A stretch of 64,000 nt of DNA from an uncultured Oceanospirillaceae bacterium. Lineage in GTDB: Bacteria > Pseudomonadota > Gammaproteobacteria > Pseudomonadales > Balneatricaceae. The position numbers and the translations under genes are program-made. Shown in pieces: positions 19,443 through 39,419 of the stretch (position 1 is the first letter of the stretch; the number at the start of each line of letters is the position of its first letter). The stretch is from contig CAKZOD010000050.1 of the NCBI GenBank assembly GCA_937136055.1, positions 1 to 64,000 on the forward strand, read 5' to 3'. The notes beneath the pieces were generated by a model. That model saw only the letters and a program-made list of their open reading frames with translations. It made no database searches and was not told where the DNA came from.

Positions 19443-20345
19443 TCACATAGAGTGGGCATGTAAAGCAAAGCGTTCAAGCTGCTGGGCTAATGAGCGGCTA
19501 ATTTCAGTATTGATCCCCCAGTGTTGCCAGTATAGGGGGATATCTATCGATGATTCTGGGGTAACAAGTACTAACTCTTTACTGTTTAAATAACGTTGCA
19601 CTTGCTCTTTAGGTGCCATGCCAAAGCCCATTCCTCGTATAATCCATTCGATATACCCCTCGGAAGATGGCACAAAATGATGATACTGCTGATTTGCTTC
19701 TATATTAAAAAAGCGTTTTAGGTATTCATGTTGTAGCTGATCTTTGCGGTTAAAAATGACCGTGGGGGCCTTCTTAAGCGTATTACCATTCACACCTTGT
19801 TTAAAATACTTCGCAACAAAGCTTGGGCTGGCAATGCAGTGGTATTTAACTTTGCCCAGTGATGTTGTCGTACAGCCTTGGAAAACTTGTTTAACAGAGC
19901 TGATACAACCAATCACATCACCACTCCGCAGCAGCTGGTGGGTTTGATCTTGATCGTCAATTTTTAAATCGAGCAGCACTTTGTGTTGCTCGCACCAAGG
20001 CGCTAAAGCACTTAATAACCAAGTAGCAAGGGTGTCGGCATTAGTGGCGATTGATATTTTCATCCATTGAGATTGTTTGCGCGGTGCTAAATCTGTCATC
20101 AAACTACGTTCAAGTAGTGATAAAGAGTTTGCATATTTAAGTAGCGCTTGGCCTGCTCGAGTAACTTTTATTTGCGGCGAGCGTACCAGTAAACTTTCAC
20201 CGAGCTGTAACTCTAATGACTTTAGACGCTGAGATACAGCTGACTGTGTTATACACAATTGGTCAGCAGCGCGCTCAAAGCTCTCTTGAGAGACAACTGC
20301 CATAAAAGCAGCCAATCCTTTTGTATCAACCATTATTGCCACCAT
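19443..20345 (-). CDS. argP: LysR-type regulator ArgP
   Basis: LysR HTH; length and sequence ArgP/IciA-like; divergent from an argO-like exporter. Confidence 0.85.
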   Translation of the reverse strand: MVAIMVDTKGLAAFMAVVSQESFERAADQLCITQSAVSQRLKSLELQLGESLLVRSPQIKVTRAGQALLKYANSLSLLERSLMTDLAPRKQSQWMKISIATNADTLATWLLSALAPWCEQHKVLLDLKIDDQDQTHQLLRSGDVIGCISSVKQVFQGCTTTSLGKVKYHCIASPSFVAKYFKQGVNGNTLKKAPTVIFNRKDQLQHEYLKRFFNIEANQQYHHFVPSSEGYIEWIIRGMGFGMAPKEQVQRYLNSKELVLVTPESSIDIPLYWQHWGINTEISRSLAQQLERFALHAHSM

Positions 20346-20352
20346 TTATATG

Positions 20353-20623
20353 CTAAGGAACATGCGATTAAGTCCCAAAATCTTCTCTGTGGATAACTAA
20401 GGGGCCAGATCCGCGGAAAAATACGCAGTGAATGGCCAGTCCTTTACAAGTGTTTTGACAAAGGAGGTGGCCCCTTAGATATCCACCCTACGGGGCGTAC
20501 AGGATATTCCGTGCTCTTCGTTAATGCTTTTCGCCGGGCAACCAGCCCGCCTGTAAGCATTGCCTCAATCACGAAAAACCCTGTGCGCCAGAGGCGTTTG
20601 GGACTTCATCGCATGTTCCCTAA
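20353..20623. repeat. Structured repeat element, copy 1 (271 bp)
   Basis: Terminal inverted repeat GGAACATGCGATTAAGTCCC/GGGACTTCATCGCATGTTCC; inner stems GTGGATAACTAAGGGGCCA/TGGCCCCTTAGATATCCAC and GGCGTACAGGAT/ACCCTGTGCGCC; homologous to 27171-27516. Confidence 0.9.
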
Positions 20624-20738: not shown

Positions 20739-21350
20739 ATGTTATTTTTTCCCTTCTTTAAAGGTTTAGGTATTGGAGCTAGTTTAATTATTGCGATTGG
20801 AGCACAAAATGCTTTTGTGCTGAGTAATGCGGTGAAAAAGCAACATGCTTTCGCGATTGGCACAGTGTGTATGGTGATTGATATTGTGCTGATCTACAGC
20901 GGGGTTTTAGGGTTGGGTGCAATCATTAAAAAGTATCCTGTGATGATTACCTTCGCGAGCTACTTTGGTGCAGCATTTTTAATAGTGTATGGTTTTTGGG
21001 CGTTTAGAAGAGCGCTAAACCCTAGTGCCTTAGCCACTCAGTCAGTGAAGAAAATGTCTTTATTAGTGGCTGTATCAAGTACAGCTGCTTTGAGTTTATT
21101 AAATCCACACGTGTATTTAGATACTGTTATTTTACTTGGTAGTATCGGCGGGCAATTACCTGGTAACCAGCCTTTATGGTTTGCTTTTGGTGCAAGTGTG
21201 GCATCCGTGTTGTGGTTCAGTGTACTGGTAGTAGGTGGGATTGCACTGGCTCCTTGGTTTAAAAGTGAGAAGAGCTGGCAGTTATTAGATTCCTTTGTAG
21301 GAATCACAATGTGGATTATTGCAGGCTTTTTAATTAACTCTGTTATTTAG
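20739..21350 (+). CDS. argO: LysE/ArgO family amino acid exporter
   Basis: GLGIGASLIIAIGAQNAFVLSNAV; divergent from argP. Confidence 0.85.
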   Translation: MLFFPFFKGLGIGASLIIAIGAQNAFVLSNAVKKQHAFAIGTVCMVIDIVLIYSGVLGLGAIIKKYPVMITFASYFGAAFLIVYGFWAFRRALNPSALATQSVKKMSLLVAVSSTAALSLLNPHVYLDTVILLGSIGGQLPGNQPLWFAFGASVASVLWFSVLVVGGIALAPWFKSEKSWQLLDSFVGITMWIIAGFLINSVI

Positions 21351-27170: not shown

Positions 27171-27516
27171 CTAAGGAAACAGTGAATAAGTCCCTAGATG
27201 TTCCCTGTGGATAACTAAGAGGCCAGTACCCAAAGGGCATGCTAATCCGCGAAAGAAGGCGCAGTGAATGGCGAGTCCTTTACAAGCTTTCTGACAAAGC
27301 AAACCCAGATGAAACAAGGTTTCATCTCTGATGGCCTCTTAGCTTTCTTTGAATAAGTAAGACCCTACGGGGCATGCAGGATATTCCGTGCTCATCGTTA
27401 ATGCATTTCGCCGGGCAACCAGCCCGCCTGTATGCATTGCCTTAATCACGAAAAATCCTGCATGCCAGTACCCGGGGGCATAAAGGGCGTCTAGGACTTG
27501 TTCACTGTTTCCCTAA
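27171..27516. repeat. Structured repeat element, copy 2 (346 bp)
   Basis: Terminal inverted repeat GGAAACAGTGAATAAGTCC/GGACTTGTTCACTGTTTCC; inner CTAAGAGGCCA/TGGCCTCTTAG, GGCATGCAGGAT/ATCCTGCATGCC, AATGCAT/ATGCATT. Confidence 0.9.
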
Positions 27517-39357: not shown

Positions 39358-39419
39358 CTAAGGAACATGCGATTAAGTCCTATAGAGAAGATTTGGGGGC
39401 TTGATCGCATGTTCTCTAA
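39358..39419. repeat. Mini-version of the structured repeat family (62 bp, outer stem only)
   Basis: CTAAGGAACATGCGATTAAGTCC identical to the left end at 20353; right end GGGCTTGATCGCATGTTCTCTAA. Confidence 0.9.

Follow-up and report, generated by a model that had tools for sequence, protein, structure and literature searches.

The 64,000-nucleotide stretch analysed here, referred to as the window, contains a family of repeats with long complementary arms, and the question raised by this locus is whether their fold is maintained by selection and, if so, which molecule folds, RNA or DNA. The initial annotation had described three copies, all of which are present, and the arms and paired stem changes quoted in it read as described; the CTAA...CTAA that it took for the ends of the element is instead a target duplication lying outside it. 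The features of the three copies are as follows.

20353-20356, no strand: left target duplication CTAA of copy 1
20357-20619, plus strand: copy 1, a complete element of 263 bp
20357-20375, plus strand: left terminal inverted repeat (TIR) GGAACATGCGATTAAGTCC, of IS5-group type, forming the 5' arm of P1
20389-20486, plus strand: P2 arm, stem and hairpin with the conserved loop GCAGTGAATGGCCAGTCCTTTACAAG...TTTTGACAAAG
20486-20495, plus strand: mini-hairpin CCCTACGGGG linking the arms, CCCnnnGGG in other lineages
20486-20589, plus strand: P3 arm (domain D), CGTTA ... GGGCAACCAGCCC ... TGCCT, matched by covariance model R1 (E 1.7e-19)
20601-20619, minus strand: right TIR, GGAACATGCGATGAAGTCC on the minus strand
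20620-20623, no strand: right target duplication CTAA of copy 1
27171-27174, no strand: left target duplication CTAA of copy 2
27175-27512, plus strand: copy 2, 338 bp long, its arms carrying additional hairpins and its TIR being the variant GGAAACAGTGAATAAGTCC
27513-27516, no strand: right target duplication CTAA of copy 2
39358-39361 and 39416-39419: CTAA duplications of the mini-copy
39362-39415, plus strand: mini-copy, a 54-bp TIR-only hairpin whose core is lost

Copy 1 is located between a LysR-type regulator gene (19443-20345, minus strand) and a divergent LysE-type translocator gene (20739-21350, plus strand), and copy 2 has a 99% identical sister elsewhere in its own genome (G000:C88:48900-49246).

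The ends of the element point to its mode of transposition. Elements of 263 bp with 19-bp TIRs are short and occur in many copies, as is characteristic of MITEs. Identical 4-bp flanks were found in 36 of 74 copies with both ends present, and YTAR occurs on both sides in 39 of the 74, with the same target across the named genera; YTAR is the target-site duplication of IS5 (PMC10359306). A 1.16-kb IS in another genus of the same family (G021) carries the TIR GGAACATGCGATTAAGTC, CTAG on both flanks and an intact transposase of 321 aa, assigned to the NF033581 IS5 family (E 1.2e-106) and to Pfam DDE_Tnp_1; similarly, the TIR of the Pontibacterium MITE, GGAACCTGCGAATAAGTCC, resembles that of an IS in genome G027. 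Because the 19-bp TIR and the YTAR target match those of an intact IS5-group IS, the window repeats are, judged by their ends, MITEs moved in trans by an IS5-type transposase. The initial annotation had likewise regarded the element as devoid of ORFs and mobilised in trans, and no ORF of at least 100 aa, the threshold applied, overlaps the window copies. Divergence of the TIRs in step with the transposase accounts at least in part for the outer-stem change from copy 1 to copy 2.

A partner transposase in the same genome is no requirement for MITE status, and partner transposases occur in other genera. In the own genome (92% complete), neither protein nor family searches detected one, so the copies there would either be stranded or depend on an IS in the part of the genome that the assembly lacks; the same type was also undetected in the other MITE-rich genomes G215, G325, G403 and G425. 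Derivation of the core from an IS by internal deletion found no counterpart in the autonomous IS loci L039 and L054, neither of which was matched by R1.

The own genome harbours about 45 copies, 69% to 97% identical to copy 1, and none of 30 lies inside a gene. Further copies were found in six genomes of the same genus and two of a second genus, while a loop motif served to locate the element in Neptuniibacter, Amphritea, Pontibacterium and Marinobacterium, where copies mostly share the 263-bp length, the offset and TIRs of IS5 type. The length of the core is fixed, amounting to 263 bp overall in most Nitrincolaceae copies. Two MITEs of approximately 260-270 bp in genome G031 (L061 and L062) have the same TIR type and an interior missed by BLAST with copy 1; given its strong R1 match (E 2e-12), this interior is a diverged member of the family at the level of the model. 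Insertion sites, scored on the flanks of copies in the own genome, its relatives and the named genomes, lie between divergent genes in 32 cases and between convergent genes in 8, as raw counts from crude ORF calls without scaling for spacer length. Carriage as plasmid or phage cargo was considered and discarded, copy 1 having no match among plasmids and phages and the loop motif being absent from viral contigs.

Confinement of the element to Nitrincolaceae was also rejected: the exact loop motif had been too narrow, and both Vibrio copies and the model search refuted it. In Vibrio penaeicida (G425), a 266-bp element is present in at least 40 copies; it shares the plan, the P2 loop (GCAGTGGAATGACGAGTCCTTTCCAA) and the CCCnnnGGG mini-hairpin and combines them with new stems and unrelated ends, TATACCCAAGTGACCTCAAG, of which this genome contains about 150. 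Relatives occur in V. campbellii, V. tritonius, V. casei, Photobacterium and Pseudoalteromonas, the unrelated TIRs TATACCCAAGTGAC being found in Vibrio, Photobacterium and Pseudoalteromonas. These Vibrio-type relatives end in TATAC..GTATA, which we take to resemble the ends of ERIC, and the window copies use YTAR. Covariance model R1 was trained on the P3 domain of Nitrincolaceae only, and the Vibrio-type elements had been found through P2; its matches to them, at the predicted place and mostly with E of 1e-5 to 1e-9, therefore constitute an independent test. In a class-wide sample, R1 was positive in 20 of 370 genomes, which represent 15 families with the own one counted, and several of these genomes have 10 scored copies; a phylum-wide sample added five further families, all of the same class. 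The search of related genomes thus extends the element to at least 19 other gammaproteobacterial families, in which plan and loops are kept and stems are new; many of these relatives measure 259-271 bp and have IS5-like TIRs such as GGAACCTCTG. On the V. tritonius plasmid pMA35 (L315 2528-2695), a 168-bp gene for a hypothetical protein, WP_342610029.1, is annotated inside a relative, and this ORF is probably spurious.

The two arms appear to be related to each other. In several elements (L319, L320, L329, L339, L340, L349, L164, L314 and L317), R1 also matches the minus strand in the P2 half, approximately 96 bases left of the P3 match. Matches at about 34-42 bits are not decisive, because a palindromic domain scores 33-45 bits against its own reverse complement, as seen at P3 in Nitrincolaceae; those at 50-63 bits are stronger. 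In L319, CATCGTTG...CGCCTTGAT in the reverse complement of P2 agrees with CTGCGTTA...TGCCTTGCC in P3. On this sequence evidence, the arms are recognisably head-to-head (inverted) copies of one domain in several lineages; in the window copies P2 has diverged below detection.

Selection on the fold, claimed in the initial annotation from paired changes between copies, was assessed by energy and covariation. Against dinucleotide shuffles, z was -10.4 for copy 1 and -9.1 for copy 2, and -9.2 for copy 1 with DNA parameters. Covariation was evaluated in the manner of R-scape with our own implementation of a tree-based null, in which the substitutions on each branch are re-dealt among columns sharing the same parent base; 60 null alignments were used in the first test and 80 in the second, so that a printed E of 0 means below approximately 0.02. 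On 74 copies, three column pairs reached E < 0.05; each belongs to the structure, and two, 46-117 (P2) and 172-200 (P3), lie within the arms. On 113 copies from more genera, all six significant pairs fall in the fold, P2 contributing one and P3 three, so that four lie outside P1, and when only the pairs of the structure were tested on these 113 copies, 27 of 104 reached E < 0.05 (P1 10, P2 8, P3 9). Among 95 matches to the P3 domain, both sides have changed in 33 of 35 pairs and the covariation score is 0.76, against 0.20 when shuffled and 0.07-0.10 when slid, an alignment which, being fitted to the model, supports and does not prove the pairing. The fold is under selection, including the arms beyond the TIRs. 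The view that the element is more than an inert MITE accordingly holds as regards its fold; what had not been foreseen is that its ends are ordinary IS5-group TIRs with YTAR, which make it a MITE. DnaA boxes (CTGTGGATAAC in P2) were dropped as a candidate, since those stem positions vary between copies.

The nature of the folded molecule can be approached through mismatches. In RNA, a Watson-Crick pair can drift to G-U and not to A-C, and the roles are exchanged on the opposite strand. Events of both kinds were counted on trees, at pairs predicted on both strands only, and RNase P RNA, taken from 30 genomes belonging to the same family and order, served as control. RNase P RNA gave 36 G-U against 5 A-C events (p = 8e-7), whereas the MITE gave 132 against 100 (p = 0.04), with 24:23 on inner branches and, in a diverse subset, 10 G-U against 15 A-C on inner branches. 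The ratios by arm were 54:50 (P1), 64:49 (P2) and 53:57 (P3). Distant relatives showed 94 A-C and 62 G-U cells, and the interiors of seven lineage consensuses, in which the decay of dead copies is removed, comprised 491 Watson-Crick, 10 G-U and 17 A-C pairs. A raw count of cells, 473:152 for G-U:A-C, was discarded as biased, the fold having been chosen on the plus strand, and replaced by this strand-neutral version. Copies in tandem gene contexts lay on the same strand or on the opposite strand in ratios of 7:8, 1:1 and 13:12 in three sets (21 and 21 in sum), without orientation preference. The pairing constraint is nearly strand-symmetric, unlike that of a one-strand RNA, and therefore either DNA folding or a requirement for both transcripts remains. 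The slight G-U excess in the 132:100 ratio may reflect a weak RNA component; overall, the evidence favours selection on folded DNA rather than RNA. The initial alternatives of a mobile structured RNA or ssDNA element and a dispersed ncRNA thus stand as regards a dispersed, mobile and folded element, while the RNA part is weakened by the G-U/A-C symmetry and by orientation.

Two readings nevertheless place the fold in RNA. A MITE-borne RNA, in which the transcript of one strand folds into a three-way junction and serves as an ncRNA or cis-regulator, would suit the strong covariation, the conserved loops and z values of about -10, and MITE transcripts in other bacteria have been reported to regulate neighbouring mRNAs (PMC2229807); we consider it unlikely, as a G-U preference comparable with that of the RNase P RNA control is absent, both strands fold about equally (-128.4 vs -125.6 kcal/mol) and copy orientation is unbiased. 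No Rfam covariance model matched the element; the sole Rfam match in the window is an RtT RNA (RF00391) at 113-242 on the plus strand (58.9 bits). Strand symmetry and an inverted-dimer design are what would be predicted of an RNA device that works both ways, yielding, for instance, a terminator or mRNA-processing hairpin in whichever orientation it lands and rendering insertions harmless to neighbours, and the intergenic position of the own-genome copies (0 of 30 inside genes) agrees with it. This second RNA reading is also improbable: U-runs are absent at either end of window copies 1 and 2, convergent sites, the best for terminators, were the rarest in the raw counts (8 vs 32 divergent), and if only the sense domain D were used, tolerance of G-U would be expected in P3 on the plus strand and of A-C in P2, against the observed 53:57 and 64:49.

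Pairing over time bears on whether the fold is selected at all. The 11 young copies of the own genome compared show 39 single changes against one double, two other sets of young copies show 20 against 5 and 37 against 7, and long branches are compensated; therefore, selection acts on the lineages that propagate, and the pairing is not explained by simple repair of the palindrome. That template switching or quasi-palindrome correction at replication merely maintains the complementarity of long palindromes, which would lead one to expect strand symmetry and few wobble pairs, is accordingly very improbable, given the nearly uncompensated decay of young copies and the conservation across families of unpaired loop positions, inexplicable by correction.

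We thus consider it probable that the DNA fold of a trans-mobilised IS5-type MITE is selected, most likely because it aids mobilisation. A DDE transposase acting in trans on the IS5-group ends would insert the element at YTAR, here CTAA, with a 4-bp duplication. The core of fixed length would fold, on either strand, into a three-way junction of the TIR stem P1 and the arms P2 and P3. The domain that both arms repeat in several lineages consists of an outer stem, the CnnCGTT side, a middle stem, an apical hairpin that varies and the CCTTG side; propagating lineages keep Watson-Crick pairing on both strands as well as the loops. The selected form may be a cruciform, or a hairpin in single-stranded DNA at the replication fork, and we infer that it could help mobilisation by joining the two ends or by making the arms available to the transposase or to some factor of the host. 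Against this reading stand the transposase searches, negative in the own genome and in several other MITE-rich ones, and the fact that strand symmetry would equally be expected of an element required to function as RNA whichever way it lies. More tentatively, the element is possibly a class-wide mobile element whose functional form is a folded DNA inverted dimer, its stems, ends and transposase being replaced and its shape and loops kept. Under this broader proposal, the folded domain would be the feature recognised by a factor of the host or of the transposase; the ends around it are IS5-type YTAR ends in many families and TATACCC ends in Vibrio, Photobacterium and Pseudoalteromonas.

Folded DNA is the functional form of REP/BIME elements and integron attC sites, as proposed here; these are recognised by HUH enzymes or tyrosine recombinases without target duplications, whereas the present element has IS5-type TIRs and duplications. 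It shares with IS5-group IS (NF033581-type) and their MITE derivatives the TIR type GGAAC.TGCGA.TAAGTCC, the 4-bp YTAR target and a trans-acting transposase, but its core differs from IS5 sequence, is kept across families and is found behind unrelated TIRs as well. RUP of Streptococcus pneumoniae, a MITE of IS630-Spn1, is likewise a short repeat whose TIRs match the IS supplying the transposase, but it is 107 bp long, targets TA and has no other signature of structure or function in the review (PMC2229807), whereas the element described here has 263 bp, a YTAR target and a covarying core. ERIC/IRU and NEMIS/Correia elements are also intergenic, palindromic, multi-copy and MITE-like with stable folds, but are shorter and form a single stem-loop, and for ERIC an orientation-dependent RNA effect has been reported (PMC2229807), in contrast to the near strand symmetry found here. 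The CIR elements of Caulobacter and Brucella, set beside the present element by description, have two inverted-repeat arms with a linker and a phylogenetically conserved fold, and are only partially MITE-like according to the review (PMC2229807).

Bacterial MITEs are usually seen as remnants of deletion whose interior is arbitrary. In the present element the interior is constrained in about 20 families, persists when the terminal repeats change and shows a constraint that does not look like that of a one-strand RNA, so that selection on folded DNA can be tested in a non-autonomous transposon. The covariance model makes the element searchable in other genomes, and the G-U versus A-C strand test with its RNase P control may serve generally before a covarying repeat is called an ncRNA. 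Structured MITEs are already known (PMC2229807; PMC10969869), and no description of this element was found in the literature, which is weak evidence of novelty since subscription papers were poorly covered; the novelty, as far as can be told, lies in a single double-arm core that is conserved in many families and sits behind ends of at least two kinds, together with the evidence that speaks against a one-strand RNA.

Shortened forms of the element accompany the complete ones. TIR-only or near-TIR-only hairpins of about 54-105 bp occur with both TIR systems, in the own genome (G000:C91:34035, C74:38195, C92:46653, C103:45223) and in V. penaeicida (G425:C45:29095, C13:57125, C3:6475), and are apparently derivatives by core deletion. 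Such mini-elements, of which the one in the window has its duplication, are a weak point of the proposed role in mobilisation, since the core may be dispensable for transposition or may have been lost afterwards. In L072, L073 and L074, most or all of the P3 arm is gone and both ends are kept; these one-armed copies, together with those lacking both arms, fit hairpin- or palindrome-mediated deletion in vivo.
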